From an uncultured bacterium (lineage in GTDB: Bacteria > Verrucomicrobiota > Kiritimatiellia > RFP12 > UBA3636), in contig CADBEF010000001.1 in assembly GCA_902793555.1 (NCBI GenBank), positions 1 to 41,402 on the forward strand: 41,402 nucleotides of DNA. Direction: 5' to 3'. A program made the position numbers and the translations under genes. The notes beneath the pieces were generated by a model, which saw nothing but the letters and a program-made list of their open reading frames with translations, ran no database searches and was not told the DNA's origin. This document shows, piece by piece, positions 6,845 to 37,571 of this stretch. How positions within the stretch are numbered: the first letter of the stretch is position 1; every line of letters begins with the position of its first letter.

Positions 6845-6851
6845 TCCGCGC

Positions 6852-7661: not shown

Positions 7662-7664
7662 GCC

Positions 7665-16443: not shown

Positions 16444-17220
16444 TCACTCCGCGAGCAGGAGCGACGAACGGCGGGAAAACCGGACGCGGAAGGCCGTCTT
16501 GAAGTAGCGGAAGTTGGCGAAGAAGGAATTCTGGGATTCGCCTTCGGGACGGGGTTTCCAGTTCGCCGGAATCTGCACGAAGGGGACTCCGAGCCGGAGC
16601 GGGACGACCGAGGTTTCCAGGAAGAACGGATGGCGCAGCTCCTTCCAGTCGATCGCCCGCATGAGCGCCGACGGAAACAGGCGGAAGGCGTAGGTCAGGT
16701 CGTTCAGCCGCGTCAGGAACAGCGCGGAGATCATCTTCTGGAAGATCGCGTTGCAGACGATTTTCACGCGGCTGTAGCCGGAGAAGCCGCCCCCGGCCAT
16801 CCAGCGCGAGGCGGTGATCACGGCGCCGGGGATCTCTTTCGCCTTTCCGATCATGCGGCCGACGGCCTCGGGCGGCGTTTCGAGATCGGCCGACATCATC
16901 ACGCAGTGGCTTCCCGCGACTGCGGGAAACGCGCTCCGGTAGGCGCCGCCGGCAAAGGGAAGCGTCTGGTACAGGATGCGGACGGGCGGACTCCCGTCGG
17001 ATTCCGACACGAGAGCCTCGGCCGTCGCCCGGCAACCGGGGGTCGTCTTCTCCGGGTGGAGGAGGATCAGGATTTCCGCCAGATCCTCTGGGTGGCAGGC
17101 CTTCTTGAGCTGCTCGACGGTTTCGCGGAGCGAAAAGGTCTCGTTGACGGCTGCGACGAGAATGCTGGCGTTGTCGAACGAACCGGGAAGGAGGCTGGAA
17201 ACGGCGTGGTTGACTTTCAT
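16444..17220 (-). CDS. Family 2 glycosyltransferase, polyprenyl-phosphate sugar synthase-like
   Basis: A 258-residue GT-A enzyme resembling dolichyl/undecaprenyl-phosphate mannose or glucose synthases. ASILVAAVNETFSL starts the fold; MSADLETPPEAVGRMI (about residues 109-124) corresponds to the DADLQHPPE metal-binding motif of DPM1, with the first Asp replaced by Ser; the ASRW and LTYAFRLFP segments match the acceptor region of the family. There are no clear transmembrane segments. It would make polyprenyl-P-sugar donors for the GT-C membrane proteins encoded nearby. The ATG at 17220 is preferred over an upstream in-frame ATG at 17256, because the -10 element at 17228-17233 lies only 7 nt before 17220 and the extension would sit inside the promoter. 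Confidence 0.85.
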   Translation of the reverse strand: MKVNHAVSSLLPGSFDNASILVAAVNETFSLRETVEQLKKACHPEDLAEILILLHPEKTTPGCRATAEALVSESDGSPPVRILYQTLPFAGGAYRSAFPAVAGSHCVMMSADLETPPEAVGRMIGKAKEIPGAVITASRWMAGGGFSGYSRVKIVCNAIFQKMISALFLTRLNDLTYAFRLFPSALMRAIDWKELRHPFFLETSVVPLRLGVPFVQIPANWKPRPEGESQNSFFANFRYFKTAFRVRFSRRSSLLLAE

Positions 17221-17227
17221 GCGCGCG

Positions 17228-17256
17228 ATTCTAGCAGACTCGCGGCGACAGCGCAA
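17228..17256 (-). promoter_or_regulatory. Extended -10 promoter of the minus-strand GT2, predicted leaderless
   Basis: On the minus strand, TTGCGC (17256-17251), a 17-bp spacer and TAGAAT (17233-17228) preceded by TGC. The ATG at 17220 follows after exactly 7 nt. It is back-to-back with the plus-strand promoter starting at 17261. Confidence 0.7.
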
Positions 17257-17312: not shown

Positions 17313-18272
17313 ATGAAAGCAATCGTTCTGGGCTGCACCGGCATGGTCGGCGGCTGCTTCGCCCGAAAGATGGTCGAGCGCGGATGGGATGTCACGGGCG
17401 TCGCCCGCCATACCGCGATGGGGCGCCAACTCGTCGAGCGCCCGTATCCGTTTGTCGGATGCGACATCCTGGACCGCGAGAACCTTCTTGCCGTGTTCAA
17501 GCGGATCCGCCCCGACCTCGTGGTCTGCATGGCGGCGCAGGCGTTCAACGGAACCTCGTGGGAGGCCGAACGCTATACCTACCTCGTGAACGTCGAAGGG
17601 ACGCGCAACGTCCTGTCGGCCCTGCACGAGGCCTGCCCCGACGCGAAGCTCCTGCTCGCGTGCAGCAGCGCCGAGTACGGCGACGCCACGCGCTCCGGCG
17701 CCGCCCTCCGCGAGGACGTTCCCCTGCACCCCCTCACGCCCTACGGCGTGACGAAGGTCGCGACCGAGATGATGGGCTACCAGTACTTCCGCAACTACGG
17801 AATGAAGGTGTACCTGCCACGCATGTTCATCCACGTGGGTACCGGGCATCCGCCGGCGACGGCCATCCAGAACTTCGCGCGCCAGATCGCGCTCGCCAAA
17901 GCGGGCCGGGGCGACGGCGTCGTGCGGACCGGCCGGCTGGACACGGCCCGCGACTTCATCGACGTCCGCGACGGCGTGGAGGCCATGTTGACGCTCCTCG
18001 AGCGCGGCGAGCCGGGAACGCCCGTCAATATCTGCAACGGCGAGGCGCCCACGATCCGCCACGTCTTGGACGAACTTCTCGACATCGCCGGCGTCTCGCC
18101 GCGCGTCGAGCAGGCGCAGTCGCTCCTCCGTCCGTCGGACGAGATGGTCCTGCTCGGAGACAACACCCGGCTCCGCTCGCTCGGTTGGTCGCGCCGCTAT
18201 ACGCTCCGACAGACGCTCGAAGGCGTGTTCGAGGACTGGGACCGCCGCGTGCAAGCCGGCAATCTTTCTTGA
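17313..18272 (+). CDS. rmd: NAD-dependent epimerase/dehydratase, GDP-6-deoxy-D-mannose reductase (RMD)-like
   Basis: A 319-residue extended short-chain dehydrogenase. GCTGMVGGCF (residues 8-17) is the nucleotide-binding glycine motif; CSSAEYGD carries the active-site Ser; YGVTK is the catalytic Tyr-Lys pair. Segments typical of RMD, which reduces GDP-4-keto-6-deoxy-D-mannose to GDP-D-rhamnose, are AAQAFNGTSWE, YQYFRNYGMKV, FARQIA, TARDFIDVRDGVEAM, SLLRPSDEMVLLGDN and LGWSRRYTLRQTLE. The length equals the family norm. No GDP-mannose 4,6-dehydratase (gmd) is in the window, so the substrate must be supplied elsewhere. A different NDP-4-ketosugar reductase or epimerase is possible. It has its own promoter, divergent from the GT2. 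Confidence 0.8.
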   Translation: MKAIVLGCTGMVGGCFARKMVERGWDVTGVARHTAMGRQLVERPYPFVGCDILDRENLLAVFKRIRPDLVVCMAAQAFNGTSWEAERYTYLVNVEGTRNVLSALHEACPDAKLLLACSSAEYGDATRSGAALREDVPLHPLTPYGVTKVATEMMGYQYFRNYGMKVYLPRMFIHVGTGHPPATAIQNFARQIALAKAGRGDGVVRTGRLDTARDFIDVRDGVEAMLTLLERGEPGTPVNICNGEAPTIRHVLDELLDIAGVSPRVEQAQSLLRPSDEMVLLGDNTRLRSLGWSRRYTLRQTLEGVFEDWDRRVQAGNLS

Positions 18273-18468: not shown

Positions 18469-20028
18469 ATGAACCATCGGACAATCGCCATCGTCGGCGC
18501 CGGCCCCGCCGGACTCACTGCCGCCTACGAGCTGCTCTCCCGCGCGCCGGGCCGGCGCGTCGTCGTGCTCGAGGAATCCCGCGCCTTCGGCGGCATCTCC
18601 CGCACCGCGCTCCACAACGGCAACCGCATGGACATGGGCGGCCACCGCTTCTTCACCAAGGTTGCCGCGGTGAACGACTGGTGGGACCGGATGCTCCCTC
18701 GCCAGGGCGCGCCGTCCTTCGACGACAAAACGCTCGGCCGCCCGTGCTCCCTTGCGGCCGGGGGCCCCGACCCGGAGAAAACGGACCGCGTGATGCTCCG
18801 CCGCAACCGCGTCTCGCGCATCCTCTTCAACGGGAAGTTCTTCGACTATCCGATTTCGCTCAAGTCCGCGACGTTCGCGAACATGGGGCTCAGGACGACG
18901 GTCGTGGCGGGGTGCAGCTACCTTAAGGCCGCGCTCTTCAAGCGCGAGGAGAAGTCGCTCGAAGACTTCTACGTCAACCGGTTCGGGAAGAAGCTCTACT
19001 CGATGTTCTTCGAGAACTACACGGAGAACCTCTGGGGGCGACATCCCTCGAAGATCGACCCGTCCTGGGGCGCGCAGCGCGTCAAGGGCGTGTCCGTCCT
19101 CGCCGTCGTGAAGAACGCGCTCCTCAAGCCGTTCCGGAGGAAGGGTGGAGCCGTCGAAACCTCGCTCATCGAGGAGTTCTCCTACCCGAAGCTCGGCCCC
19201 GGCCAGCTCTGGGACGCGACGGCGGAGGAAATCCGGAAGCTCGGCGGCGAAATCCTGCTCGGCGCGAAGGCCGTCGCTTTCCGCCGCGGCGGTCCCGGCG
19301 GCGCGATTTCGGCCGTCGTCTACGAGCAGGGCGGTCAGCGCAAGGAACTCGCCTGCGACGCGCTCGTTTCGTCCATGCCGATCAAGGACCTCGTCGCGGG
19401 ACTGCCCGACGTCCCCGCCGAGTCCGCGCGCATTGCCGCGGGCCTCCCCTACCGCGACTACATGACCGTGGGCGTCCTCGTTCCGACGCTCAAGCTCCGC
19501 AACAAGACCAAGATTCCGACGCTCGGCGGCATCGTGCCGGACAACTGGGTCTACGTGCACGACCGCTCCGTCAAGATGGGCCGGTTCCAGATTTACAACA
19601 ACTGGTCGCCCTACATGGTTTCAAAGCCGGCGGAAACGGTTTGGGTCGGCCTCGAGTACTTCTGCAACGAAGGCGACGCGCTCTGGTCGATGTCCGACGC
19701 GGACTTCGCGGCGCTGGGCGTCCGCGAGATGGCCTCGCTCGGCATGATTGACACGGAGTCGGCCGCTCTCGACACGCACGTCGAACGCGTGAAGAAGGCG
19801 TATCCGGCCTACTTCGACACCTACGCGGAATTCCCGAAGCTCCGCGCCTGGCTCGACACGATCCCGAATCTCTACTGCGTGGGTCGCAACGGCCAACACC
19901 GCTACAACAACATCGATCACAGCATGTGCACGGCGTTCGAAGCCGTCCGGGCGATCCTCGCCGGCTCCTCCGACCGCAGCGCCGTCTGGAACGTGAACAC
20001 CGAAAAGGAGTACCATGAAGGCCGGTAG
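18469..20028 (+). CDS. NAD(P)/FAD-dependent oxidoreductase, UGM/protoporphyrinogen-oxidase-like
   Basis: A 519-residue flavoprotein. VGAGPAGLTAAYELL (residues 8-22) is the FAD Rossmann motif, then VVLEESRAFGGISRT and MDMGGHRFF, which is the GGHRFF signature of UDP-galactopyranose-mutase-like sugar cluster proteins. ENYTENLWGRHPSKI and GQLWDATAEEI are typical of this long subgroup, often annotated only as FAD-dependent oxidoreductase. The C-terminal CVGRNGQHRYNNIDHSM closes the FAD site. It is a distant relative of the 15214 flavoprotein. Its substrate is not known; it could be a nucleotide sugar or a polyprenyl-linked sugar. The end overlaps the start of the next gene by 14 nt, and AAGGAG at 20005-20010 near its end serves as ribosome-binding site for that gene. 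Confidence 0.8.
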   Translation: MNHRTIAIVGAGPAGLTAAYELLSRAPGRRVVVLEESRAFGGISRTALHNGNRMDMGGHRFFTKVAAVNDWWDRMLPRQGAPSFDDKTLGRPCSLAAGGPDPEKTDRVMLRRNRVSRILFNGKFFDYPISLKSATFANMGLRTTVVAGCSYLKAALFKREEKSLEDFYVNRFGKKLYSMFFENYTENLWGRHPSKIDPSWGAQRVKGVSVLAVVKNALLKPFRRKGGAVETSLIEEFSYPKLGPGQLWDATAEEIRKLGGEILLGAKAVAFRRGGPGGAISAVVYEQGGQRKELACDALVSSMPIKDLVAGLPDVPAESARIAAGLPYRDYMTVGVLVPTLKLRNKTKIPTLGGIVPDNWVYVHDRSVKMGRFQIYNNWSPYMVSKPAETVWVGLEYFCNEGDALWSMSDADFAALGVREMASLGMIDTESAALDTHVERVKKAYPAYFDTYAEFPKLRAWLDTIPNLYCVGRNGQHRYNNIDHSMCTAFEAVRAILAGSSDRSAVWNVNTEKEYHEGR

Positions 20029-21649
20029 AACGACGGCGACCGCGGCGGCGGCGGCATTCCTTTCGGTTGCGTGTGCCGTCGTCCTGCGCTGGCTCTGGTC
20101 CGGCGTCTTCCTGTCGGAATTCCAGGCCGACACAGCGGACAACCTCTTCTGGGCGGCGGCCCAGCGCGAGGCGGGTTCGCTCGCGAGTCCGACGTTCGCT
20201 TACGGCTATTTCATCCCGCTCGGCGGCAACCTGCTCATCCGGCCGTTTCTCCCGGTATTCGGAACGGGCGTGACGGCGTTGCGCGCGGGCATGACGCTGT
20301 TCGTCCCGCTCTTCGCCTTCGCATGCTACCGTCTGTTTCGGTCGTTCTCCTGGAAACGCGCGGAAAGCCTGTTCGCAACGGCCCTTCTCTTCGCCGTTGC
20401 GTCGGCCTCCCTCAAGATGCGCGAAATCCATTTCGGACACGTTCTCTACTACAGCTTGGGAACGGTCTTCCTGTTTCTCGGCTGCGCGCTGGCGCCGGAC
20501 GTCCGGGGGAACGGCGCCGGAAGCCCCCGCCGCGCCCGCATTCTCCGCGGCGCGCTCTTCGCCCTGGCGCTGGGGTGGGCCGCTTCGTGCGGGCAGCCCC
20601 TGCTGCTCTACGCCGTCGTGCCGGTTCTCGGGGCGTGGGTTCTCGTCCGGCTCGTCGACCGCGAGCCGCTGGCGCCGGCGGAAGACGGCCTTCGGATCCT
20701 TCCGGGTGCCGTCGGGGCCGTTGTCGGACTGGTCCTCTTCAAGGCACTCTCGCGGGGCGTTTGCGTCTCCTCCGGCTACAACGACTACTACGAGGCGTTT
20801 TCCCCGCTCGCCTCGTGGTTCCGCAACGTGCAGATCCTCCCCCAGGAGTGGATTTCCCTTCTCGAGCCCCTGCCGAGGATGCGGATCGCGATTGCGAGTT
20901 CGACGGGGCTGCCGCATGCCCTCCGGATCGCGACGGCCCTTTTTCTCGGGCTCGCGCCCGTCGCCGCGCTCGTCCGGATCCGGACGTTCTCCGTCCGGGA
21001 GCGGACGTTCGTCGTCGCGCACTGGATTCTCGCGTCGGAGATCCTGTTTTACTGGATCTTCGGAAACATCTCCAACGCGAACTGGCGTCTTTGCCCGCTC
21101 GTTCTCTCCGCGACGGCGGTCGCGGCGTGCCTCGTCCGGAACGGACTCGCCGGAACGGGCGTTCCCGTGCGGCGCTTCGCCGCCTGCGGCGCCGCCTTTC
21201 TTTTCGCGTTCTGCGTCTTTTCGTTCGTCCAGACAAGCACGCGGCGTTGCGAACGGAACACGTGGCGGGGTCCCGAAACGCTGCTTCCGACGCTTGAACG
21301 GGCCGGCGTCCGCGACGGGTATTGCTCGGACTACTGGTACGCAAACTCGGCGACGGCGGTTTCCGGAAACCGTTTCCGGCTCCGAGAGGTCCGGTTCAAC
21401 GGAAAGACGGGCCGATGGGAGCCTCGGCTCCACAATGCGGACGCCCGCTGGTACGAACCCGACCCGGCCCGGACGGAGTCGGTTTTCGTCTGCCATCCGA
21501 ACGAGGAGGTGCGGGCGCCGACGAACGGCCTGCGCGGACGTTTCGCCTGCATCCAGAAGACCGCGCGTCTCGGACGCCCCGAGCCCCTCGTCGTTCGCGT
21601 CTACGACGGCGACTGCATGAATCCGGCCCGCGCCTCCGACGAACCGTGA
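20015..21649 (+). CDS. Polytopic membrane protein, GT-C glycosyltransferase-like
   Basis: A 544-residue inner-membrane protein with about ten hydrophobic segments and a soluble C-terminal region (about 400-544). The first loop after the N-terminal anchor has SEFQADTADNLFWAAAQ, where paired acidic residues sit where GT-C enzymes carry catalytic Asp. This, the size and the cluster context suggest transfer of a polyprenyl-linked sugar, but no named family is recognised with confidence. A well-placed AAGGAG precedes the ATG. It overlaps the flavoprotein gene by 14 nt and its TGA overlaps the GTG of the next gene, so the three genes form an operon. Confidence 0.7.
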   Translation: MKAGRTTATAAAAAFLSVACAVVLRWLWSGVFLSEFQADTADNLFWAAAQREAGSLASPTFAYGYFIPLGGNLLIRPFLPVFGTGVTALRAGMTLFVPLFAFACYRLFRSFSWKRAESLFATALLFAVASASLKMREIHFGHVLYYSLGTVFLFLGCALAPDVRGNGAGSPRRARILRGALFALALGWAASCGQPLLLYAVVPVLGAWVLVRLVDREPLAPAEDGLRILPGAVGAVVGLVLFKALSRGVCVSSGYNDYYEAFSPLASWFRNVQILPQEWISLLEPLPRMRIAIASSTGLPHALRIATALFLGLAPVAALVRIRTFSVRERTFVVAHWILASEILFYWIFGNISNANWRLCPLVLSATAVAACLVRNGLAGTGVPVRRFAACGAAFLFAFCVFSFVQTSTRRCERNTWRGPETLLPTLERAGVRDGYCSDYWYANSATAVSGNRFRLREVRFNGKTGRWEPRLHNADARWYEPDPARTESVFVCHPNEEVRAPTNGLRGRFACIQKTARLGRPEPLVVRVYDGDCMNPARASDEP

Positions 21650-23601
21650 AGCCGATCGTTCCGGCCGTCTTCCTTGCGCTCTTTGCGGTGCTCGTCGCGG
21701 CGAAAGTCCACGGATTCTCCGTCGGCGTCTGGAACCTTCGCGCCTACGTGCCCGACACCGTCCCGTCCTATTCTTTCCTGGAAATCGGCGTCCCCCGGCC
21801 GATCCGTTCCGACGAGTGGAGCGTCTCGACCCCGCAGGTCCTAGCGCAGTGCGAGAGTCCCGATTTCTTCCCGCGCGTGAACCGGCGCGTGGACGGCGGG
21901 ACGGACATGTTTCTCGCCACGCCCTGCAATCCGGTGTGGGATTGGACCGTTCCCGGCCAGTTCCAAAACTGGGGCTATTTCCTTTTCGGGGCCGAGCGGG
22001 GTCTGGCCTGGAACTGGTGGTGCCGCTATCTCGGCATCCCGTTCTTCGCCTATCTCTTCTTTCTCGGCTGGCTGGGGCGCGACCGGCTCCTTGCCGTCAC
22101 GGCCTCCCTCGCCGTGGCGCTCGGAGCGCCGACACAGTGGTGGGACACGACACTGCCCTATCTGCTCCTCTACTTTTTTTCCGGACTTGTTTTCTTCCGG
22201 ATCGTCGTTTCGCGGGACGCGCGCGTCCTCGCGAAGGGGCTCGCCTCGCTCGGGCTGTTCGTTTCGCTCGCGTCGTACGCCTTCGCCGGCTATCCGCCCT
22301 TCGCCATTCTTCTCTTTCCGGCGTTCCTGTTGCTCGGCTGGCAGGTTTGGAGACGCGAGAATCCGCCGGGCGCCGTCCCCGCTCCCGTCCGGGGGCGCGG
22401 GGCCTTCCTGTTGCGTCCCCGGTTCTGGCTGGCGGCGGTCCTTCTCGCTCTTGCGGCCGAATTCGCCTATTTTGCCGTCGTCCACGCGGACACGCTCCGG
22501 ACGATCGCCGGCTCCGCCTATCCGGGCCGGCGCTTCGCCCTCGGCGGATCGTTCCATGATTTCCTCCGGCACCGGGCGCTGGAAGCGGTCTGTCCGTTCT
22601 TTTCCTGGCCGGGTTTCAACGTGAATCCGGACTTGTGGAGCGAACCGAACGTCTGCCGGGCGGCACGATGGTTCGTTCCCGGAACGGGGTTGGTTTTCCT
22701 CTTCGCCCTTCGGTGGCCCGGATTGCTCCGCCTTCAAAGGAGCGACTGGCTGCTCGCCGCCGCGGGACTTTGGCTTTTCGCCTGGAGCGCCTTTCGCTTC
22801 CCCCCATCTCTTGCGCGGGCATCCGGCATGTTCCCGTTTCCCGCCCATCGCGCGGAAGTGGTTGCCGGTTTTTATTTTCTCCTGTTCTCGTTCCGCACGT
22901 TCGTCCAATCGGGCGGACCGGCTCCCGACCGCCGCCGCCCCGCCGCGCTCGCAGCGGCGCTTTCCGTCGCGATTCTCGTTTGTGGAGTCCTGCTTCCGGG
23001 CGGGAAAGGCGGGTTTTTCGTGGGGCGCGCCGGCATCCTCTTTCTTGCCGGCGGGGCAGTTTTGTGCGCCGCCGTCACGGCGGGGCTCGTCTCGGGCGTC
23101 CGCTGGCTGTTCTGCTGCGGTTATCTCGCGCTGTCGATCGCCGGTGGCGTCATGGTCCATCCTCTTTCCGTCGGCATTTCCCCCTTGCGGGACAAGGAGC
23201 TCGCCGTGCTTGTCCGGGAGATCGACGCCCGGGAACCGGGCCGCTGGATGGCGAACGAGCCCTTTGTCGGGAATTTCCTGCTGGCGCAGGGGGTTGATTG
23301 CCGCCCGGGGACCCAACAATACGCGAATCCGGACTTTTGGAACGTCCTCGATCCGGAAGGGGCGTACGAGCGCGAGTGGAACCGCTACGCCCACTGCGCC
23401 GTCGCCCTGTCTCAGGATGGGACGTTCCATGCGAAAGCCGCCGGCGTCGTTCTCCGTTTCGCGGTCACGGAACGGAACTTGCGGGATCTCGGGATATCGC
23501 ATCTGGTGTGGTTCGGCAAGAAGCTTCACGAACCCTGGCTGCGCTACGAAGGCCGCAGCCGGCTTCACTTCGTCTACACGCTCTTGCCGGAGCGGGACTG
23601 A
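21646..23601 (+). CDS. Large polytopic membrane protein, paralogue of 28776-30797
   Basis: A 651-residue protein. GTG at 21646 is chosen because it overlaps the previous TGA (GTGA) and immediately precedes a membrane anchor. It begins with GFSVGVWNLRAYVPDTVPSY and RPIRSDEWSVSTPQVLAQ in the first extracytoplasmic loop, then FLATPCNPVWDWTVPGQFQ, a multi-spanning core with GAPTQWWDTTLPYLLLYFF, and a soluble C-terminus (about 520-651) ending in WLRYEGRSRLHFVYTLLPE. The same landmarks occur in the minus-strand gene at 28776-30797 and, more distantly, in 26299-28809. The RSDEW motif recalls an uncharacterised family of membrane proteins (DUF7657-like; from memory). A GT-C or modification role is inferred from context. 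Confidence 0.75.
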   Translation: MKPIVPAVFLALFAVLVAAKVHGFSVGVWNLRAYVPDTVPSYSFLEIGVPRPIRSDEWSVSTPQVLAQCESPDFFPRVNRRVDGGTDMFLATPCNPVWDWTVPGQFQNWGYFLFGAERGLAWNWWCRYLGIPFFAYLFFLGWLGRDRLLAVTASLAVALGAPTQWWDTTLPYLLLYFFSGLVFFRIVVSRDARVLAKGLASLGLFVSLASYAFAGYPPFAILLFPAFLLLGWQVWRRENPPGAVPAPVRGRGAFLLRPRFWLAAVLLALAAEFAYFAVVHADTLRTIAGSAYPGRRFALGGSFHDFLRHRALEAVCPFFSWPGFNVNPDLWSEPNVCRAARWFVPGTGLVFLFALRWPGLLRLQRSDWLLAAAGLWLFAWSAFRFPPSLARASGMFPFPAHRAEVVAGFYFLLFSFRTFVQSGGPAPDRRRPAALAAALSVAILVCGVLLPGGKGGFFVGRAGILFLAGGAVLCAAVTAGLVSGVRWLFCCGYLALSIAGGVMVHPLSVGISPLRDKELAVLVREIDAREPGRWMANEPFVGNFLLAQGVDCRPGTQQYANPDFWNVLDPEGAYEREWNRYAHCAVALSQDGTFHAKAAGVVLRFAVTERNLRDLGISHLVWFGKKLHEPWLRYEGRSRLHFVYTLLPERD

Positions 23602-23995: not shown

Positions 23996-24391
23996 ATGAA
24001 ACGCGGAATCACATTCGGCACGTTCGACGTTTTCCACTACGGACACCTCCGGATCCTGGAGCGCACGCGCGAGCTGTGCGACTACTTGATCGTCGGCGTC
24101 TCGAGCGACGAGCTCAACTTCTCCAAGAAGGGGCGCAACCCCTGGTACTCGTTCGAGGAGCGCGCCCGCATCGTCGGCGCCCTCAAGTGCGTCGACGAGG
24201 TGTTCAAGGAGGAGTCGCTCGACTTCAAGGCCGACTACATCAAGAAATACAAGGCCGACGTCCTCGTCATGGGCGACGACTGGGCCGGCAAGTTCGACTG
24301 GGTGATTCCGCTCACGGGCTGCGAGGTGCTCTACCTTCCGCGGACTCCGGCGATTTCGACGACGGCGATCATCGAGCGGATCCGCGGATAA
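23996..24391 (+). CDS. tagD: Glycerol-3-phosphate cytidylyltransferase-like protein (TagD)
   Basis: A 131-residue nucleotidyltransferase that would couple glycerol 3-phosphate to CTP, giving CDP-glycerol. GTFDVFHYGHLRILERT (residues 8-24) holds the HxGH motif; SFEERARIV and LPRTPAISTTAII supply the second nucleotide-binding motif (R-T-x-x-I-S-T-T). The length and the sequence KADVLVMGDDWAGKFDWV match TagD, not RfaE2 or PPAT, although other small cytidylyltransferases (ethanolamine-phosphate type) cannot be fully excluded. It starts an operon with a modular glycosyltransferase 3 nt downstream. The genes at 8882 and 31047 encode CDP-glycerol-transferase-like domains that could use the product. 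The leaderless promoter fixes the start. Confidence 0.85.
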   Translation: MKRGITFGTFDVFHYGHLRILERTRELCDYLIVGVSSDELNFSKKGRNPWYSFEERARIVGALKCVDEVFKEESLDFKADYIKKYKADVLVMGDDWAGKFDWVIPLTGCEVLYLPRTPAISTTAIIERIRG

Positions 24392-24394
24392 CCC

Positions 24395-26302
24395 ATGGTC
24401 CGCGCCGTTTTCACCTTCTTCTCCTCGCTGTTCCGGCGCGACGGACTCGCCACTGTCGGGAAAATCTTCTGCTACGCCCTTTCCCCGAGGGCCTGGTGCT
24501 GGCTATTCAAGAGCCTGCGATACAGACGGATCGTGAAGGCGGCCGGCCTCGTCGACGAATCGTGGTACCGGCGCGAATACCCCGAAGTCGCGGAAAAGGG
24601 GATCGACCCCGTCCAGGATTTCCTGATGCCGCCTCACCCGTGCACGAGGATGCCCAATCCGGACTTCGTTCCGGGTGAATACGCCGCCGTGAACTACGAT
24701 GTGAAGGAGTGCGGAGTCCTCTGGGCCGTCCACTACGCGAAGGACGGCATGCGCGAAGGGCGCCCGGTTTCCACGCTGGAAAATTATCAAAAGCCGTTTC
24801 CCGTCGGTTCCGCCGAACTTCGACGCGAGTTCCCGGCGGTGCCGGCCGTCCACCGGCGGACTGCGGTCTTTGCGTCATTCTCCGGCGATGGGCGGATCCA
24901 GGAAACTGTCCTATACTATCTCCGAGGTCTCCGCGAGGTTGTCGACAGCATCGTTTTCGTCGCCAACAACCCGATCTTTCCGGACGAGATCGGGAAACTG
25001 GACGGACTCGTCCGGCTCGCGGTCTTCCGGCATCACGGGTGCTACGACTTCGGATCCTACAAGATCGGCTGGAACGAGGCGAAGGCGCTCGGGCTTCTCG
25101 AGCCGGACGTCTGCGACGAACTCGTCGTTTGCAACGACTCCTGCTACGGCCCCGTGTTCCCGTTCTCCGGGGCGTTCGCCGAAATGGATCGCCGCAACCG
25201 CAAGGCGAAGCCGGACGGGCGGTTCGACTTCTGGGGCATGACCGCCATGCGGATCTACGGGAGGGATGCGATTCAGTCGTTTTTCTACGTTTTCGGAAAA
25301 TCAGTCCTCGAGGGAAACAACCTGGACAAGTGGTTCTCGAATCTCCCGGAATACCGTGACCGGGGGCGAGTCGTGTTCAACTGCGAGTCAATGCTGACGA
25401 ACGATCTGGCGAATTCGGGGTTCCGCTGGGATTCGCTGGTCCCCGAGTCGTTCCATCTGAAGAAAAAGGCAACGCCGACGAAGCATCCTCTCGCATTGCT
25501 GCGTGATTTCCGCATGCCGCTCGTCAAGGCGAAGGCGCTCAAGGGCGACTGTCTCGACGACATGTCCGCGATTCGGACATTTCTCGCCGGCGCCAATCCC
25601 GATCTGGCCCGGCTTCTGCACCCGGAGGCGGTTTCCGTACAAGGAAAGAGACGGTCCCCCGCCAAGACGGCCCGGGAGTCCCATGTTCCTTCCTTGCCGA
25701 GAAAAGTCGCGGCGGTTCGAGCCGCCCACGGCGAAGGAAGCCCCCTCCGGATTCTTTTCCTGACAGTATCGACCGCATCGATTCCCCAACGTCCATGGCT
25801 GGATGCGTTTTGCGGCGAATCGGGGTTCCGGACGCGCATCGCCGTCGTCCCCGATTTGAGAATCGCGGATTTTTCAGGTCGATTGTCCGCGATGCGCGCC
25901 GCGCGAGCGGCTCTTTTCGCGACGTTCGGAAAAGACCGGGTGGTCAAGCCCGAAACCGATTCGGCGGACGAATGGTCCGACCTGACGGCAGACGCGGACG
26001 TCGTCTGCTGGGAAACGGCGGAAGATGCCTCGGACTTCCGTTACAACCCCCACTACGCCGTCGGCCGCGACTTCCTCCCGGTCCTCTTCTTCGACCGCCG
26101 GATGGCCGGCCCGTATCCGTTGGAGAAAGAGTTCGCGCGGCAGAACTACGCCTATTTCTGGAAGGTGCTCTTTTTCGACCGCGAGGCGTTTGACCTCTAC
26201 GCGAAGCACTCGATCCGGAAAGGGGAAAATGCCGTTCTCGTCGAAGGCGGCAACGCCGCGGCGGCGGTCACAGGGATGTTCAAAGATTGCCTTTTGAAAT
26301 GA
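24395..26302 (+). CDS. Modular glycosyltransferase: RgpF-like plus truncated CDP-glycerol transferase-like
   Basis: A 635-residue cytoplasmic protein. Residues 1-45 resemble the N-terminus of the 8882 protein (LFRRDGLATVGK against LLRRDGFAFFGK). Residues about 49-125 hold the YRREYPEV and HYAKDGMREGRP repeat region; about 154-370 a rhamnan-synthesis-F-like domain (GDGRIQETVLYYLRGLRE, YDFGSYKIGW, NDSCYGPVFPF). From about 450 it follows the N-terminal half of the CDP-glycerol-transferase-like module (FRYNPHYAVGRDFLP, RQNYAYFWKVLF) but stops at about residue 635, before the HHSVEGG, RPHPF and [10 protein letters not shown] motifs. The catalytic half of that module is therefore absent. It overlaps the next gene by 4 nt (ATGA). 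Confidence 0.82.
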   Translation: MVRAVFTFFSSLFRRDGLATVGKIFCYALSPRAWCWLFKSLRYRRIVKAAGLVDESWYRREYPEVAEKGIDPVQDFLMPPHPCTRMPNPDFVPGEYAAVNYDVKECGVLWAVHYAKDGMREGRPVSTLENYQKPFPVGSAELRREFPAVPAVHRRTAVFASFSGDGRIQETVLYYLRGLREVVDSIVFVANNPIFPDEIGKLDGLVRLAVFRHHGCYDFGSYKIGWNEAKALGLLEPDVCDELVVCNDSCYGPVFPFSGAFAEMDRRNRKAKPDGRFDFWGMTAMRIYGRDAIQSFFYVFGKSVLEGNNLDKWFSNLPEYRDRGRVVFNCESMLTNDLANSGFRWDSLVPESFHLKKKATPTKHPLALLRDFRMPLVKAKALKGDCLDDMSAIRTFLAGANPDLARLLHPEAVSVQGKRRSPAKTARESHVPSLPRKVAAVRAAHGEGSPLRILFLTVSTASIPQRPWLDAFCGESGFRTRIAVVPDLRIADFSGRLSAMRAARAALFATFGKDRVVKPETDSADEWSDLTADADVVCWETAEDASDFRYNPHYAVGRDFLPVLFFDRRMAGPYPLEKEFARQNYAYFWKVLFFDREAFDLYAKHSIRKGENAVLVEGGNAAAAVTGMFKDCLLK

Positions 26303-28809
26303 CGCAGCGTTTCCGGGGAAACAAGCCGGGCATCAATCAATCCGTTCGCATTCTCGCGGCCGCCGGCTTCGCCATCTTCGCCGCGGCGGGCATCGCGACT
26401 CTCATGGAAGTTCGCGGCCTTCTCGGACGACCGCATTCCGTCCTTCTCGACCTCTCGGCCGCGGAGACGGACCAGTGCGTCGTCGAGCGGGGCGAAATGA
26501 CATCGTCCGGAAACGACGCCAAGCTCGTATGGAACGGTTTCTCGGGCGATGGCATCCGGCTTGACATTGCGGTCGAGGCCGGTGAAGGCACATTTCTCGA
26601 CGTGTTCTGGGGAACGCCGGACCAACCCGCCTTTTCGTCCTCCCGTTTTTCCCGAGTGCCATTGTCCGCTGGAGACAATCGGTTGGCCATTCCGATACGT
26701 GGCAAGATCCGTCGCTTGCGCCTCGATTTCGGAGACGCCCCCGGACAGAAGTTTCGGGTTTCGTCCATTCGGGCTCGAAGCGGACTGCGGCTGGACCGTC
26801 CCTGGTCATGGAGCGTGTTCGGACTCCGATCCGCCGTCCTGTTCTTCCCGGTCTTCCTTCTGCTCCTCCACGTGGCGTTTCCGGCCGGTCGCATCTGGTC
26901 TTTCATTGACCGGAACCGGGTTGCGCTGGCCGGGTCGATCCTCGTGTTCGCCGTTGCCTTCGAGTTGCACGGTTCCTCGATCGGAATGTGGAATCAATTC
27001 GTTCCAAATGGCAACGCCGAACCGCCCCTTTTCGGCGTCGAGCGCCCGATCCGGTCCGACGAATACGCCGTGTTCACCCCGATGACGCTCGCCCAGTCGT
27101 TCGCGAAGCCCGCGTGGCCCTATTTCAACGACATCCCCCGCGCCGCCCCGACGGACATGTTCTCCGTCTACGCGCAACCGGTCCGGCACCCGCTTCTCGT
27201 CTTCCGTCCGTTTCTCGCCGGTCATGTCCTCTTCGGGTTCGAACGCGGGCTCGCCTTTTTCTGGTTCGGCCGATGGCTGGCGCTTCTGCTCCTGATGTAC
27301 GAATTGTTCAAACTTCTGACTGACGGCTTCAAGCCGCTTGCCGCCATCGCCTCGCTGCTTGTCGTTCTGTCCCCGGTCGTGCAATGGTGGGGAGCCATCA
27401 ACGCCTTGGCCGAAATGCTTGTTTTCGGATCGGTGTTCGTGCTTTGTCTCGACCGGTTCATGCGAGGAACCTATTTGCGAGACCGATGGCTTCCCGTCGT
27501 CGGGATGGGCTACTCCTGCGTCGCCTACGCGATGACGCTCTACCCGGCCGCGCAGGTTCCGTTCGCCTATGCGTTCGGCGCCTTGTCTCTCTGGACGGTC
27601 CTGCGTCGCGCGAAAGGATTCCGAGCGGACGCCGCCACGTGGGCCTTCGCCGGGGTCGTTGTCCTTGCGGCAGCAGGGATTCTGGGATGGTATCTGCATC
27701 TTTCCGGCGAAACGTTCCGTGTTATGTCCGATACTGTCTATCCGGGAAGTCGCTTCGATTGCGGCGGCGGGTTCCGCAAGGGATTCGGTCTTTTCTGGGG
27801 CAATCTGCTCTTCCCGTGGACTTCCTCCGTCTTCGAGGATGGAAACTCGTTCAACCGGGCGATGTTCCCGGACTTCTTCCCGCTCGGATTCGGTCTGGCC
27901 GCGTTCCTGCTCGTCCGGCGCCGCGTTCGTGATCTTCTTTCAGCCCTACTGGTCATTGTCGCCATCGTCCTTTCCCTCTACTGCGTGACAGGCTTTCCCC
28001 GATGGTTGGCCGGTCTTTCGCTTCTGTCCCGCTCGACGGCGCCTCGCGCATTCGTCGCGCTCGGATTCGTCCAGCTGCTGTTGCTGCTGCGTTCCGTCTC
28101 CCTGCTCCGATCCCCGCTTTCCGTCCGTGACGCCGCTCCGATCTCGGCCTGTTTCGCGGCCGTGGCGATGCTTCTCGCACATTTGAGCTATCCCCGTTAC
28201 CTTTCCGCGATCTCTTTGCTGGTCGTGGGAGCCTTTGCCGCGACAGGATGCTGGAATCTCCTACGCCTACATGCATCGCCGGGAAGGGCGTCGCTGTTTT
28301 TCGCAGCCCTCGCATTTTGCGTGGGAGCGTTCGTCAACCCGATCCAGCGCGGAGATGCGGGTGTTTTCGCCTCGGAACTGGCCCGAACGATCCGGGCGAT
28401 TGCTGGGAACGACGGCGGCGCCTGGCTTGTCGAAGGAGCGGACTTCCCGATGAACCAATACCCTCTCTTGTCCGGCGCCGCCACCATCAACGCCGGCAAT
28501 CTGTATCCCGTTCTGGAACGTTGGCGGGAACTTGACCCGACGGGGACCGCGGAAAAGACGTGGAACCGTTACGCGGTCGGGATCCGGTTCGACGTGAAAC
28601 CCGGCGCGCCGACGTCGATTTCCCTGACGGGGTTCGACACCTTCCGTGTCGAAATCTCGCCCGATTCGCTCGTGGAACTAGGCGTGAAACACGTTTTGAG
28701 CCGCCGCGACCTGTCTTTTTCGCCAGACGGTCCGATCCGGTTTCTCCCCGTTGCCCGTTCTTCGGGATGGATCGTTTACTCGGTTCCGTCCGCGTCGTCG
28801 GCCCGTTGA
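26299..28809 (+). CDS. Large polytopic membrane protein with N-terminal beta domain
   Basis: An 836-residue protein. ATG at 26299 overlaps the previous TGA; an alternative TTG lies 12 nt upstream. Residues about 15-35 form a membrane anchor, then an extracytoplasmic beta-rich domain (about 45-165, with KIRRLRLDFGD), equivalent to that of the 12997 protein (RIERLRVDFGA). A long multi-spanning core follows, with HGSSIGMWNQFVP and RPIRSDEYAVFTPMTLAQ in the first large loop, then a soluble C-terminus (about 700-836) with VEGADFPMNQYPLLSG and EKTWNRYAVG. It is a divergent paralogue of 21646-23601 and 28776-30797. Its last 34 bp overlap the convergent minus-strand gene. An extracytoplasmic sugar transfer or modification role is inferred from the cluster. 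Confidence 0.75.
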   Translation: MTQRFRGNKPGINQSVRILAAAGFAIFAAAGIATLMEVRGLLGRPHSVLLDLSAAETDQCVVERGEMTSSGNDAKLVWNGFSGDGIRLDIAVEAGEGTFLDVFWGTPDQPAFSSSRFSRVPLSAGDNRLAIPIRGKIRRLRLDFGDAPGQKFRVSSIRARSGLRLDRPWSWSVFGLRSAVLFFPVFLLLLHVAFPAGRIWSFIDRNRVALAGSILVFAVAFELHGSSIGMWNQFVPNGNAEPPLFGVERPIRSDEYAVFTPMTLAQSFAKPAWPYFNDIPRAAPTDMFSVYAQPVRHPLLVFRPFLAGHVLFGFERGLAFFWFGRWLALLLLMYELFKLLTDGFKPLAAIASLLVVLSPVVQWWGAINALAEMLVFGSVFVLCLDRFMRGTYLRDRWLPVVGMGYSCVAYAMTLYPAAQVPFAYAFGALSLWTVLRRAKGFRADAATWAFAGVVVLAAAGILGWYLHLSGETFRVMSDTVYPGSRFDCGGGFRKGFGLFWGNLLFPWTSSVFEDGNSFNRAMFPDFFPLGFGLAAFLLVRRRVRDLLSALLVIVAIVLSLYCVTGFPRWLAGLSLLSRSTAPRAFVALGFVQLLLLLRSVSLLRSPLSVRDAAPISACFAAVAMLLAHLSYPRYLSAISLLVVGAFAATGCWNLLRLHASPGRASLFFAALAFCVGAFVNPIQRGDAGVFASELARTIRAIAGNDGGAWLVEGADFPMNQYPLLSGAATINAGNLYPVLERWRELDPTGTAEKTWNRYAVGIRFDVKPGAPTSISLTGFDTFRVEISPDSLVELGVKHVLSRRDLSFSPDGPIRFLPVARSSGWIVYSVPSASSAR

Positions 28810-30797
28810 CGCCGCGTTTCTTCCGGGGGGGCGGGTTCTGTTGGATCCGGAAGCACCGTGTAAACGAATCGAAGCCTGCTCCTGCCTTCGTACTTGAGCC
28901 AGTCTTCGTGGAGCTTTTTTCCGGACCAAACCAAGTGCTTGATTCCCAATTCGCGGATGTTGCGTTCGGAAATGGTCGATCGAACGACGTCCGGACGCAA
29001 TGCCGAAACCGTCGGCGCGTCGTCGGCCGACAATTCAAAAAGCCGATGGGCGTAGCGGTTCCATGCAGACGAATGCATGCCGTCCGGATCGATGACAGTC
29101 CAAAAATCTCGCGGAGTGTATGTCTGCGTTCCGGCGAAGCATTCCAAACCCTGTGCGAGAAGAAAATTCCCGGTTATCCAATCGTTTGAAATCCACGGCC
29201 CGCGATCCTTGGCGTCGATTTCGCGGACGAGAACGGCAAGTTCTTTGTCGTACACCGGGGAAAGCCCTTTCGAAATCGGGTGGACAAGAGCGCCCGGAAG
29301 GCACAACGCCGCATATCCCGCGCAAAAGATCCTTTTCGATTTGGCGAACAGGCCGAAAACAACGGCCGCGACGGCAGACAGTCCGAAAGACAGAAGAACA
29401 AGTCCCTTTCCGGAAAGGAAACAAACGCCCGCCGCCTGGGGAACGAACAGCCCCATGACAACCAGCAATACGGTGAAAAAGCCGATAATGAAGGCGATTT
29501 GCCGGTCTGGCTTTTCGGTCCGGATTCCGTAGAACAACCGGAAAACGGACAGAAGGAAAACGAACGAAGACATCGTCTCCGCCCTGCGTTGCGAAAAGAG
29601 GAACAAGCCCGACGCTTTTGCCAGAATCCGGGGAAAGGGAAATGCCGCCCAAGCCAGAAGAACGGCTCCGTAGACGATCAACGCTACGTCCGGCCAAGCC
29701 AGGCGGAGCCGCATGCGCTTCCGAAGGACCAGCAGAGCGAAAAGGGCGGCTTCCGGAACGAAATAATGGGCTGCATCGCAAGGGTTGGATCCGTCATACG
29801 GGCCCAGATCCGCCTTGAACGAGGCAAGCGGCGTCAACGCGGAAACAAAATCGAGAACGGCATGGCGGACAAAAAACGGAAACGGGCCGCCGGAAAAAAA
29901 ACGGCTTCCCGGGTAGGCGGAACGACGGATGGCGTCCAAAGCCGTCGCATGGACAACCGCATAGTAGACGATTTCGAAAACAACGAGCAGAAAAACGGTC
30001 GCAATTGCGGTTTTCGTCCTTTTTTCCGCGAACGCGGACCGGCCTTTCGGCTCGACCGGACGAGCACATTCGACCGAGTGCGCAAAAAGAACGATGAACG
30101 GAGGAAGCAACAACAACGCGAAGACGGGATATCCGACAAAACAAAACGAAGAGACCGAAACGAAGAGACCGGCGGCATTCAACCAAAGACGTCCCGAGCT
30201 TTTTGCGATTGACCGAATGAACACCAGTCCGGCAAAAAAATACAACAACAGGAAAGGAAGTGTCGTGTCCCACCATTGAGTCGGCGCGCCGAGCGAGACG
30301 GCAAGAGCCGCCGTGGCGGCGAGAATCCGGTCGTTGCCAAACCAACCGAGAAAAAACAAGTAGGCGAAAAGGGGCAGGCCGAGAAAACGAGTCCACCAGT
30401 TCCATGCGAGACCGCGTTCCGCTCCGAAGAGAAAATACCCCCAGTTGTGGAACTGGCCGGGAACGGTCCAATCCCAGACTGGATTGCACGGTGTTGAAAG
30501 AAACATGTCCGTCCCGCCATTCACGCGCGGGTTCGTCTTCGGAAAGAAGTCGGGACTGGCGCATTGGGCAAGAACGAACGGCGTCGAAACGGCCCATTCG
30601 TCGGAACGGACGGGACGGTCGGTTCCGACATGCGGACGGGAATAGGAAGGAACCGTATCGGGCACGAACTGGTTCCATGCTCCAATGGAAGATCCGTGCA
30701 ATCCGGCCGCGACGAGAATGGAAAACAGCAGGACAACGGCGACAACAAGCCCATTCTCGGGAGGTCGAAGGAAAAAGGCCGGAAGGAATCGTTTCAT
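28776..30797 (-). CDS. Large polytopic membrane protein, paralogue of 21646-23601
   Basis: A 673-residue protein; ATG at 30797 is preferred to a TTG one codon upstream. Landmarks are HGSSIGAWNQFVPDTVPSYS, RPVRSDEWAVSTPFVLAQ, FLSTPCNPVWDWTVPGQFH, GAPTQWWDTTLPFLLLYFF and a soluble C-terminus ending LRFVYTVLPDPTEP. Long blocks are near identical to the 21646 protein, so the two arose by a fairly recent duplication. The gene is visibly richer in A and T than its neighbours, with runs of A on the plus strand, which suggests a different history. The stop lies inside the 3' end of the convergent gene 26299-28809 (overlap 28776-28809). The upstream GT2 remnant ends 19 nt before this start, so it probably inherits the promoter at 31004-31033. 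Confidence 0.75.
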   Translation of the reverse strand: MKRFLPAFFLRPPENGLVVAVVLLFSILVAAGLHGSSIGAWNQFVPDTVPSYSRPHVGTDRPVRSDEWAVSTPFVLAQCASPDFFPKTNPRVNGGTDMFLSTPCNPVWDWTVPGQFHNWGYFLFGAERGLAWNWWTRFLGLPLFAYLFFLGWFGNDRILAATAALAVSLGAPTQWWDTTLPFLLLYFFAGLVFIRSIAKSSGRLWLNAAGLFVSVSSFCFVGYPVFALLLLPPFIVLFAHSVECARPVEPKGRSAFAEKRTKTAIATVFLLVVFEIVYYAVVHATALDAIRRSAYPGSRFFSGGPFPFFVRHAVLDFVSALTPLASFKADLGPYDGSNPCDAAHYFVPEAALFALLVLRKRMRLRLAWPDVALIVYGAVLLAWAAFPFPRILAKASGLFLFSQRRAETMSSFVFLLSVFRLFYGIRTEKPDRQIAFIIGFFTVLLVVMGLFVPQAAGVCFLSGKGLVLLSFGLSAVAAVVFGLFAKSKRIFCAGYAALCLPGALVHPISKGLSPVYDKELAVLVREIDAKDRGPWISNDWITGNFLLAQGLECFAGTQTYTPRDFWTVIDPDGMHSSAWNRYAHRLFELSADDAPTVSALRPDVVRSTISERNIRELGIKHLVWSGKKLHEDWLKYEGRSRLRFVYTVLPDPTEPAPPEETRRQRADDADGTE

Positions 30798-30816
30798 CAA
30801 GAGGCCCGGTGTCTCG

Positions 30817-31046: not shown

Positions 31047-32657
31047 TTACGAGCCGGCCATGCCCAACGCACGCTTGATCGAGGCGAGCGCCGCGTCGGC
31101 GGCGTGGGGGTAGTTGACCATGACGGTCTTTTGGAACTCGTCGCGGGCGGCGGCCTTCGGATCGGCGCCCTTTTCGACGACGTCGCGCAGGAACGACTCG
31201 ATCGCGGCCTCGTCGTAGGCGAGGTGGCAGTGCGAGAGGCAGTCCTTCCCGAGCGGCGCGAACTTCGCGTCGATGTCGGAGGGGTCCTTGAGCATGTAGC
31301 AGCAGGGCTTGCCGGTGTAGAACCATTCGACGAGGTAGGAGCCGCAGTCCTGGACGATGGCGTCGCACGACACGAACTCGGAGAAATAGCCGCCGCCGCC
31401 GCTCCACGCGGCGTTGGGGCGCGAGAGGAAACGCGCGCGCCAGGCGTCGCATTTCGCCGGGCCCCAGAACTTCGGCCTCGACAGCACGGAAAACAGGAAC
31501 GGATGCGGCCGGAAGAGGAAGTCCAGCTCCGGGAAGCGCGCGGGCAGGTCCGCGAAGAAGTCCGCGTAGCGGAGAAAGTTCGAGAGCGCGAGGGAATCGT
31601 TCGCGCCGCCTTCGACCGAATGGTGCGGACAGAGCAGGACGCGCTTGCGTTTCGCGTCGCGCGGGAACGGTTCCGCCGCGGCGAGGGCGTCCATCTTGAC
31701 GTAGCCGACGACTTCCCCGTTCGCGCCGCGGAGGACCGAATGCTCGCGGTATTCGGCGAGCGTCGCGTCGCACTCGAAGAACGCCTTCCAGAACAGCGCG
31801 TAGTTGCGGCCCGCCATCACGTGCCGGTCGTAGAGGGAGCGGTAGTAGCCGTAGTTGACGTGGACCGGCAGGAACGGACGACCGACGCACCAGCGCGGAT
31901 TGTACTTGAAATCGGAGAGCTCGTAGGGGGAGGGGTGGCAGACGAGGTCCGCCCCGAAGCCGGCGAGCACGTCGGGCCATGCGCCGTCCGGACCGCGCGC
32001 GACGGGGAGGAACGCGTCGGCCGGATACGCTTCCGCCAGCGCCGCGCGGCAGCGTTCCATCGCCGGGGCCGGGTCGCCGCCCGCGATGCCGCGCAGGTCG
32101 GGGACGACGGCGGCCCGCGCGTCGAAACGCGGGTCGCGGCGCATGGCGTCGAACAGGGGGCGCGCCGGGAACATCGCCGCGGACGCGACGAAGAACACGG
32201 CCCGGACGCGCCCGCCGCGCGCGGCCTTCGCGCGGACGGCGTCGACAACCGCGGGGAACGCGGCCTGGTGTTCCTGCGGGGACGGGAAGCGCCAATCCGC
32301 CCCGGCGGCGCCTCCGGGCTGGAGAAAGGAAATCCGGCACCCGCGGCGGCGGCCGCGGCGCTCGTAGTGCGCGAGCGGGTTTTCGCCCGGGGGGAGTCCG
32401 TTCAGGGCGGCGTATTCGGCGCCGCAGAAGCCGGGACCGGGGTCGAGCCCGGCCGGGTGCCCGACGACGAGGTAGTGGAGCGCGGGGTCGACGCCGGACG
32501 CCGCGACGTCCGGATGCTCGCGCAGGTACCAGGCGCGGTCGAACAGGGGCGAACGCGCGACGATTCCGCGGTCGCGCAACCCGCGCAACGCGAGCGCGAG
32601 GCCGCGCGGATTCGCGGCGTAGCGGCGGAACATGTCGGACAGATCGCGCGTTTTCAT
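31047..32657 (-). CDS. CDP-glycerol glycerophosphotransferase-like enzyme with NPDV/HY-GxxEGR module
   Basis: A 536-residue protein without GT2 or RgpF domains. Residues about 40-110 form the YLREHPDV and [10 protein letters not shown] repeat region. From about 140 onward is a PF04464-like module with [61 protein letters not shown] and [13 protein letters not shown], that is, all motifs missing from the truncated 24395 protein. In family terms it would transfer glycerol phosphate (or another polyol phosphate) from a CDP-activated donor. The last 310 bp are nearly identical to the end of the 8882 gene. It is a one-gene unit with its own promoter, divergent from queA. The 33-nt leader is pyrimidine-rich and lacks a Shine-Dalgarno. 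Confidence 0.82.
31057..31370 (-). repeat. Inverted repeat copy B (3' end of transferase gene)
   Basis: Near-identical inverted copy of 12662-12975, about 18 kb away. Homology this long and close can support recombination that inverts or converts the DNA between the copies. Confidence 0.85.
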
Positions 32658-33847: not shown

Positions 33848-34777
33848 CTACGGTTCGGCGCGGAGCGCGGAGTCGGGGAAGGAGACGTTTTCGAAGTGCA
33901 GGCGCGTGCGATGGCCCGTGCCGAGCGTCTCGACCTCGAGGTCCTTGAAGATCCAGTGGTCATCCACCTTCTGGACGGCGCGCACCCAGAGCTTGCGCGT
34001 CTCGCGGCCCGTTTCGTCGAGCTGCGCGGCCTGCATGACGACCTTCTGCGCGCGGTCGACCCAGAGGCGGGCCTTGGCGCAGCCGGGCAGGGGAGCGGCC
34101 GGTTCGACGTCGAGCAGGTCGCAAACGCGGCCCTTGAGGCGGTCTTCGCCGGCGAGCGCGGGATTGCGCCAGTTCACGAAGTCGATCCCGACGTCGAGCC
34201 ACGTCACGTCCGTGCCGAGGATCGTCTCGGCGGGCGAGGCGGGCGGCGCGCCGCCGTCCGTGCGCTCGACGACGAGCCCCTTGGCGGGATCGCGCGAGGT
34301 CCGCGCGGCGAGGAGCGTCGCGCCCGACTTTCCGTCCGACAGGCGATAGGCGGTCGGCGTGTCGGGCGTGCGGTAGTCGGCCGCGACTTCGAAGCCGCAT
34401 TCGAGGATCGAGACGCCGTAGCGCTTTCGCATGTTGAGCGTGCCGGAGAGGAAGACGCGTTCGCGCGGCATGCGGGCGGCGCATTCGGCCAGGAGGGCCG
34501 CGCCGTCGGTCGGCGCCTCCGCCTCGTCCGACCCGTCGCCGAGCAACGCGGCCGCAGCCGGCGCGGGCTCGGTCCCGAGCGGCGCGTCGGGAGCGGGGGG
34601 ATCGGCGAAAACCGGGGCCGAAGCCACGGGCGCGGAACCGGCTTCGCCGGCCGGGGCGGGCTCCGGCGGCAGGAGGTTCGGGATCGTCCGGTCGAGCGGC
34701 GACGACGCGCAGGCGGAGAGGAACAGCGCGCCGTTGGCGGCGGCCAGGAGGGCGAAATGGCGGATCGTGCGATTCAT
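33848..34777 (-). CDS. Lipoprotein with LolA-like (outer membrane lipoprotein-sorting) domain
   Basis: A 309-residue predicted lipoprotein: lipobox LSAC with Cys23, followed by Ala, which does not carry the Asp that signals inner-membrane retention. Residues about 28-90 are a Pro/Ala/Gly-rich linker. The rest resembles the PF17131-type 'outer membrane lipoprotein-sorting protein' fold, clearest at the end: [40 protein letters not shown] and [13 protein letters not shown]. Such proteins bind lipid or lipoprotein acyl chains in the periplasm; the exact job is unknown. It begins 42 nt after the PNP stop and is probably the last gene of the tolB-pal-PNP unit. Confidence 0.78.
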
Positions 34778-34819
34778 GGACGTGGGGCTGTCGACGGCCG
34801 CCGTTCCGGGCGTGGCGGG

Positions 34820-35647: not shown

Positions 35648-35655
35648 GGCGCGGC

Positions 35656-36198
35656 CTAGCGCTGGAAGAACGCGAAGTCGCCGCGGCGGTTGAGGCGCCA
35701 GACGGCCTCGCCGCCGCCGGGGACGGCGGGCTTCTCCTCGCCGTAGCTCACGGTCTGGATGCGGGCCGGCTCGATCCCCTGCGCGACGAGGGCGTTGCGG
35801 ACCGACTGCGCGCGGAACTCGCCGAGCGACATGTTGTACTCGGTGGTGCCGCGCTCGTCGCAGTTGCCCTCGACGAGGAGGACGACGCCCGGGTTCTGCA
35901 TGAGGAAGAGCGCCGCGTTGGCGACCTTGCCCTGCTCGGAGGCGGGGATCGCGGACTCGTTGTAGGAGAAGTAGACGGGCGCGATGCCGGCCGCGGCGGG
36001 CGGCACGACGGGCGCGAGCTTGCTGAAGTCGATGTTGCCGAGCGGGAGGTCGCCGGGCGCCTCGAGGCCGCCGGGAAACTCGCTTTCGACGATCGTGCCG
36101 TCGTCTTCGGCGGGAGGGGCCTTGGGCGGGGTGCGGCAACCGGCGGCGAGGGCGAGAGCCGCACAGGCGGCCAGCGGAACGCGGAGGAGGTTTTTCAT
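35656..36198 (-). CDS. pal: Peptidoglycan-associated lipoprotein Pal (OmpA domain)
   Basis: A 180-residue outer-membrane lipoprotein of the Tol-Pal system. The lipobox is LAAGC with Cys21, followed by an acidic, Pro-rich linker. The OmpA-type peptidoglycan-binding domain starts at about residue 75 (PVYFSYNESAIP) and holds VEGNCDERGTTEYNMSLGE, the canonical Pal motif with the Asp and Arg that bind diaminopimelate, then RAQSVRNALVAQGI and VSYGEEKP. The domain ends LNRRGDFAF. It follows tolB after 67 nt. No tolQ, tolR or tolA are in the window. Confidence 0.93.
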   Translation of the reverse strand: MKNLLRVPLAACAALALAAGCRTPPKAPPAEDDGTIVESEFPGGLEAPGDLPLGNIDFSKLAPVVPPAAAGIAPVYFSYNESAIPASEQGKVANAALFLMQNPGVVLLVEGNCDERGTTEYNMSLGEFRAQSVRNALVAQGIEPARIQTVSYGEEKPAVPGGGEAVWRLNRRGDFAFFQR

Positions 36199-36265
36199 GT
36201 GGGTGTTTTTGGGTTTGGTGTGATGTGGAAAGGGGAACGGTTGAAACGGTGAAAACGGACGGGGG

Positions 36266-37540: not shown

Positions 37541-37571
37541 GGAAAAAGGGAGGTCGTGGAAACGGGAGCCG

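Follow-up and report, generated by a model that had tools for sequence, protein, structure and literature searches.

Capsule polymerases of TagF-like type, with teichoic-acid-like polymers as their products, were described from Gram-negative bacteria in 2018 (PMC5974469) and taken into preparative use in 2021 (PMC8262930). Teichoic-acid-like capsules formed by such enzymes are found in Actinobacillus, Neisseria and Campylobacter (PMC5974469, PMC8262930, PMC11924219), and in 2025 the C. jejuni HS:1 polymer was made by a reconstituted synthesis that combined a glycerol-3-phosphate cytidylyltransferase with a TagF-like/GT4 polymerase (PMC11924219). The window analyzed here is a 41,402-nt stretch, contig 1 of a 325-contig genome whose close named relatives are Kiritimatiellae/Verrucomicrobia MAGs. 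An initial annotation had proposed that it encodes a glycerol-phosphate-bearing surface glycan in a diderm and that no described system has this set of parts. The latter statement was too strong, and wrong in kind, because Gram-negative TagF-like capsule polymerases and the C. jejuni HS:1 system are published (PMC5974469, PMC8262930, PMC11924219), although no description was found of the exact part set, in which RgpF is fused to a divergent TagF-type module. A literature search found no paper joining Kiritimatiellota with teichoic acid.

Gene content and exporter of the cluster

The membrane subunit of a Wzm-type ABC exporter was located at window positions 6732-7661 (+ strand, start uncertain; PF01061 ABC2_membrane, 1.9e-15), followed by a Wzt-type ATPase at 7665-8885 (+; PF00005 ABC_tran, 1.9e-21), which bears out the exporter of the initial annotation. 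The best NCBIfam models for the ATPase were those of galactan Wzt/RfbE and TagH exporters, both below cut-off. Its C-terminus (window 8454-8780) matched DUF5648 (PF18885, 2e-13), which would occupy the position where Wzt-type ATPases usually have a glycan-binding domain and is possibly a new export-recognition domain.

The exporter genes are followed by a candidate multidomain polymerase (8882-13000, +), which carries GT2 (PF00535, 2.5e-32), RgpF-N (PF05045, 8.2e-26) and a full TagF-related module. A GT2 glycosyltransferase was found at 16444-17256 (-; PF00535, 3.1e-9), and an NAD-dependent sugar epimerase/dehydratase, a probable sugar-donor enzyme, at 17313-18272 (+; PF16363, 1.1e-48; PF01370, 7.3e-46). 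A TagD homologue, the predicted glycerol-3-phosphate cytidylyltransferase (23996-24391, +), precedes a gene for an RgpF-N glycosyltransferase joined to the N-terminal half only of the TagF-related module (24395-26302, +; PF05045, 2.9e-26). A stand-alone full module, preceded by a short N-terminal stretch, is encoded at 31047-32657 (-). The three module proteins are named below by their first coordinates (8882, 24395 and 31047). Genes of LolA-like, OmpA-family and TolB-type propeller proteins lie at 33848-37600, in agreement with an outer membrane and with the Tol-Pal, diderm setting of the initial annotation.

Three paralogous large membrane-type proteins (21652-23601, 26287-28809 and 28776-30800) carry DUF7657 and DUF7654 and may be membrane glycosyltransferases of the glycan pathway; no mention of DUF7657 was found in a literature search. 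Two further long membrane-type proteins inside the cluster (13003-15180 and 20015-21649) had no Pfam match.

The TagF-related module and the TagD homologue

Pfam searches returned GT2 and RgpF in 8882, RgpF alone in 24395 and no match in 31047. PF04464 (Glyphos_transf, the TagF/TarL family) was matched by none of these proteins nor anywhere in the genome; genuine PF04464 proteins are present in some relatives. A C-terminal module of ~400 aa is common to 8882 (residues ~969-1362) and 31047; of this module, 24395 has the first ~186 aa. Profile comparison (hhalign) with PF04464 proteins aligned the C-terminal half of the module (E 2.1e-6, probability 89), a match that weakened with a wider alignment (E 2.9e-4, probability 40). 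Individually, 22 of 64 aligned module sequences matched PF04464, the best at 5.8e-7. The 31047 module also matched three Vibrio alfacsensis plasmid proteins (E 5e-23), which are named as CDP-glycerol glycerophosphotransferase family in RefSeq. Its AlphaFold model was confident (pLDDT >90 almost throughout), with two domains in a GT-B fold. UDP-GlcNAc 2-epimerases, themselves of GT-B fold, stood at the top of the PDB fold matches, which included S. aureus TarL solved with CDP-ribitol (E 2.9e-8). Single-sequence and profile searches of the module against the PDB gave nothing meaningful, phage records contained no module homologues, and DNA of a distant relative was not found in E. coli genomes.

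TagF-type enzymes have two catalytic histidines, one of them in the N-terminal half. The conserved histidines of the module family (H345, H346 and H385) all lie in the C-terminal, donor-side half, where H385 aligns with the C-terminal catalytic histidine of the PF04464 family. No histidine was conserved in the N-terminal half among the 64 sequences and no counterpart to that of TagF was found there; since global profile placement of the TagF WHG histidine was unreliable, the claim is limited to the absence of any conserved one. Given the profile, fold and homologue matches together with this absence, the module is best called a divergent, uncurated branch of the TagF superfamily and not a PF04464 member. 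The last ~270 bp of the 8882 and 31047 modules (~12690-12970 and 31074-31370) share 92-98% DNA identity, which falls to 65-83% immediately upstream, a pattern suggestive of a recent duplication or gene conversion.

The RgpF (PF05045) matches in 8882 and 24395 are significant but cover profile positions 1-208 of 503 only. The unmatched C-terminal half of the profile is replaced by the whole module in 8882 and by half of it in 24395; same-genus orthologues of 24395 share the half-module and stop at about the same place. A good structural model was obtained for 24395, with weak, GT-A-type PDB matches. Because it keeps the N-terminal half of the module alone, 24395 is chiefly an RgpF-type glycosyltransferase by prediction, and because the donor-binding half is missing it would not work as a CDP-glycerol transferase by itself. 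The three CDP-glycerol-transferase modules first annotated thus stand as distant homologues in 8882 and 31047, at full length and outside PF04464, but as an N-terminal half in 24395; the RgpF glycosyltransferase domains in two of the three proteins (8882 and 24395) had gone unmentioned.

The TagD homologue is an ORF of 131 aa, with possible extension to a GTG at 23888. The glycerol-3-phosphate cytidylyltransferase model TIGR01518 was its best NCBIfam match (128.7 bits, 1.3e-37), exceeding the RfaE/HldE domain by 52 bits and falling 37 bits short of the curated equivalog cut-off (165.4 bits). B. subtilis TagD (1coz) was the best solved relative (E 2.3e-35). The motifs HxGH, K44, GDDWxGKFDW and RTxxISTT were all intact, with HYGH and RTPAISTT aligned to 1coz. 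In a tree of 78 domains, which is rough because the alignment is short, the clade of this protein was sister to the TagD/TarD clade (joint support 97/86). The protein is therefore a credible glycerol-3-phosphate cytidylyltransferase, as first annotated, though below the curated cut-off. Assignment as HldE or as an ethanolamine-phosphate cytidylyltransferase was disfavored by score and by the same short, rough tree. A second TagD-like paralogue in the genome (G000:C40:17380-17772, L066) is 58% identical and belongs to a clade with GADY instead of GDDW; the two paralogues often stand in one cluster in relatives, and the second may act on another substrate.

Cytidylyltransferase linkage and the proposed pathway

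Genome contigs were scanned with the module alignment, which yielded 71 homologous loci labeled from many phyla (Kiritimatiellota, Bacillota, Pseudomonadota, Bacteroidota, Thermodesulfobacteriota, Gastranaerophilales and Parcubacteria; MAG taxon labels are possibly wrong). Flanks of up to 10 kb were fetched as neighborhoods. A cytidylyltransferase was nearby in 54/71 loci (TagD-like in 41, IspD/TarI-like in 11, a fused NTP transferase in two), and no locus had both TagD-like and IspD-like genes; the 17 loci showing none include several on short or truncated contigs. Among the 40 TagD-like loci above 120 bits, the nearest TagD-like gene was on the module strand in 36 and within 600 bp in 21. 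Two IspD/TarI-like proteins were scored and fell near, just under, the D-ribitol-5-phosphate cytidylyltransferase cut-off, with an IspD score about equal. The Vibrio module homologue stands after a 'phosphocholine cytidylyltransferase family' gene. As a control, 14 loci around RgpF genes of the same order, without the module, were treated likewise; none of this small set carried any such cytidylyltransferase (0/14 versus 54/71; Fisher p 7e-8, for loci that are not phylogenetically independent). Chance linkage of the module with TagD was rejected on this control.

Some neighborhoods differed in composition. At L126:11183-13000 and L140:11163-12980 an NTP-transferase fused to a CobD/HisC-like aminotransferase adjoins the module, a hint that the donor there may be an amino-alcohol or a phosphonate. 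At L123, L127, L138 and L139 the module is followed by two different TagD-like genes ~1.4 kb apart. On an Oscillospiraceae-labeled contig (L101, Bacillota), RgpF-module, TagD, full RgpF and Wzm/Wzt genes occur together, which suggests either that the cluster has been transferred horizontally among gut phyla or that the contig was mis-binned.

A CDP-activated donor best explains why interchangeable types of cytidylyltransferase stand beside one transferase; the module would accordingly draw on phospho-alcohols in CDP-activated form. In related clusters of other Kiritimatiellota families a TagD gene adjoins the one for RgpF-module, the co-occurrence suggested as a check in the initial annotation, and the same arrangement is seen on two Bacillota-labeled contigs. 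Both TagDs tested from such positions in other families passed the TIGR01518 cut-off, so glycerol phosphate is the likeliest group here. The product of the cluster is probably an exported surface glycan that contains phosphate, with glycerol phosphate drawn from TagD-made CDP-glycerol. The glycan first proposed is thus retained as the best reading, given the credible TagD and a module that reads as a divergent CDP-alditol-type transferase with the linkage counts above, but with 24395 no longer counted among its CDP-glycerol transferases.

In the proposed pathway, TagD would convert CTP and glycerol-3-phosphate to CDP-glycerol. The modules at the C-termini of 8882 and 31047 would be divergent GT-B phosphotransferases, handing the glycerol phosphate of CDP-glycerol on to a sugar, and sugars would be added by the GT2 and RgpF domains, so that 8882 would be a multidomain polymerase of a glycosyl-glycerol-phosphate repeat or of a glycerol-phosphate-bearing chain. 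It would either alternate sugar and glycerol-phosphate transfer or place glycerol phosphate on the chain, with 31047 as a second transferase. The 24395 protein would add a sugar, its half-module serving as an acceptor or docking part, and Wzm/Wzt (6732-8885) would take the glycan across the inner membrane. The sequences themselves show the domain content, a predicted GT-B fold, the cytidylyltransferase linkage and the half-truncation; from these features we infer which donor is used, in what order the steps run, how the polymer product is built and how it is anchored.

Three other explanations were weighed. That glycerol phosphate is a side decoration outside the backbone of a rhamnan-like or other neutral glycan, after the manner of the rhamnose polysaccharides of streptococci, is conceivable but rather doubtful. 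RgpF domains in two proteins together with Wzm/Wzt export, a dTDP-sugar isomerase (RmlC family) elsewhere in the genome and published glycerol-phosphate-decorated rhamnose polysaccharides (PMC11754754, PMC12235971) agree with it, yet the RgpF profile is matched over its N-terminal ~208/503 positions only, and module and glycosyltransferases lie in one chain in a polymerase-like manner. The source of glycerol phosphate also differs, since in streptococci it comes from phosphatidylglycerol, outside the cell, and not from CDP-glycerol. It is unlikely that the substrate of the TagD homologue is a different phospho-alcohol or a phosphonate (e.g., ethanolamine phosphate) that, once activated, is transferred by the module, giving a glycan with phosphate or phosphonate that is not teichoic-acid-like. 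The sub-cut-off score and sister position of the window TagD, the divergent paralogue pair and the pairing of homologous modules with other cytidylyltransferase types speak for such a substrate; the retained motifs and the above-cut-off TagDs adjoining two equivalents of the RgpF-module genes speak against it.

The module might also be a hexose-phosphate transferase or an ordinary GT-B glycosyltransferase acting on a UDP- or GDP-sugar, with TagD belonging to a separate pathway in the same region. Some TagF-like domains of capsule polymerases do move hexose phosphate from UDP-sugars (PMC5974469), and UDP-GlcNAc 2-epimerases head the fold matches, but this is improbable, given that cytidylyltransferases of three kinds accompany the module across phyla, that the TagD-like and IspD-like kinds exclude each other and that the RgpF controls have none. 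A CDP-glycerol-dependent glycan is thus kept as the preferred reading of the cluster. For a wider generalization the balance is about even: the module would define a widely distributed and uncurated transferase family for CDP-activated phospho-alcohols, in which the accompanying cytidylyltransferase sets the donor (glycerol, ribitol, an amino-alcohol or a phosphonate as candidates), the N-terminal TagF histidine is dispensable, and Kiritimatiellota have an RgpF/GT2-fused phosphoglycan polymerase.

Comparison with known systems

If these readings are true, phosphate-containing teichoic-acid-like surface glycans would extend to a diderm phylum for which we found none reported, and one transferase family, mostly missed by curated models, would explain glycans of this kind in numerous uncultured bacteria of the gut. 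The accompanying cytidylyltransferase would then be a simple rule for predicting the phospho-alcohol on a glycan.

The closest described enzymes are A. pleuropneumoniae Cps1B, Cps3D, Cps7D and relatives (PMC5974469, PMC8262930), in which a glycosyltransferase domain (GT-A or GT-B) is joined to a TagF-type domain in a diderm cytoplasm; the same kind of fusion is found in 8882 (GT2, RgpF and module), with a module that is distantly TagF-like. As in the window, serotypes 3 and 7 have a predicted enzyme for CDP-glycerol synthesis within the cluster itself. In contrast to the Actinobacillus enzymes, the window module is a divergent branch mostly missed by the Pfam model, and RgpF-N lies between GT2 and module in 8882. 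The Actinobacillus-type enzymes have all TagF active-site motifs (PMC5974469), whereas the window module shows no conservation of the N-terminal catalytic histidine. C. jejuni HS:1 (HS1.11 cytidylyltransferase and HS1.09 polymerase; PMC11924219) likewise pairs a glycerol-3-phosphate cytidylyltransferase with a multidomain protein in which a TagF-like domain is fused to a glycosyltransferase, but HS1.09 has GT4 and TPR repeats where 8882 has GT2 and RgpF-N.

The wall teichoic acid enzymes of Bacillota (TagD and TagF/TarL) resemble the window proteins in the homology of TagD and in the TarL-like GT-B match of the module; they differ in that the window belongs to a diderm host, its module lies outside PF04464 and glycosyltransferases are fused to it. 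Streptococcal rhamnan RgpF (PF05045) shares its N-terminal domain with 8882 and 24395, whereas its C-terminal half is unmatched in the window proteins, which continue instead with all or half of the TagF-related module. Glycerol-phosphate polymers of diderms are already known; what is new is the phylum, together with a divergent module that is widely distributed and is here fused to RgpF.
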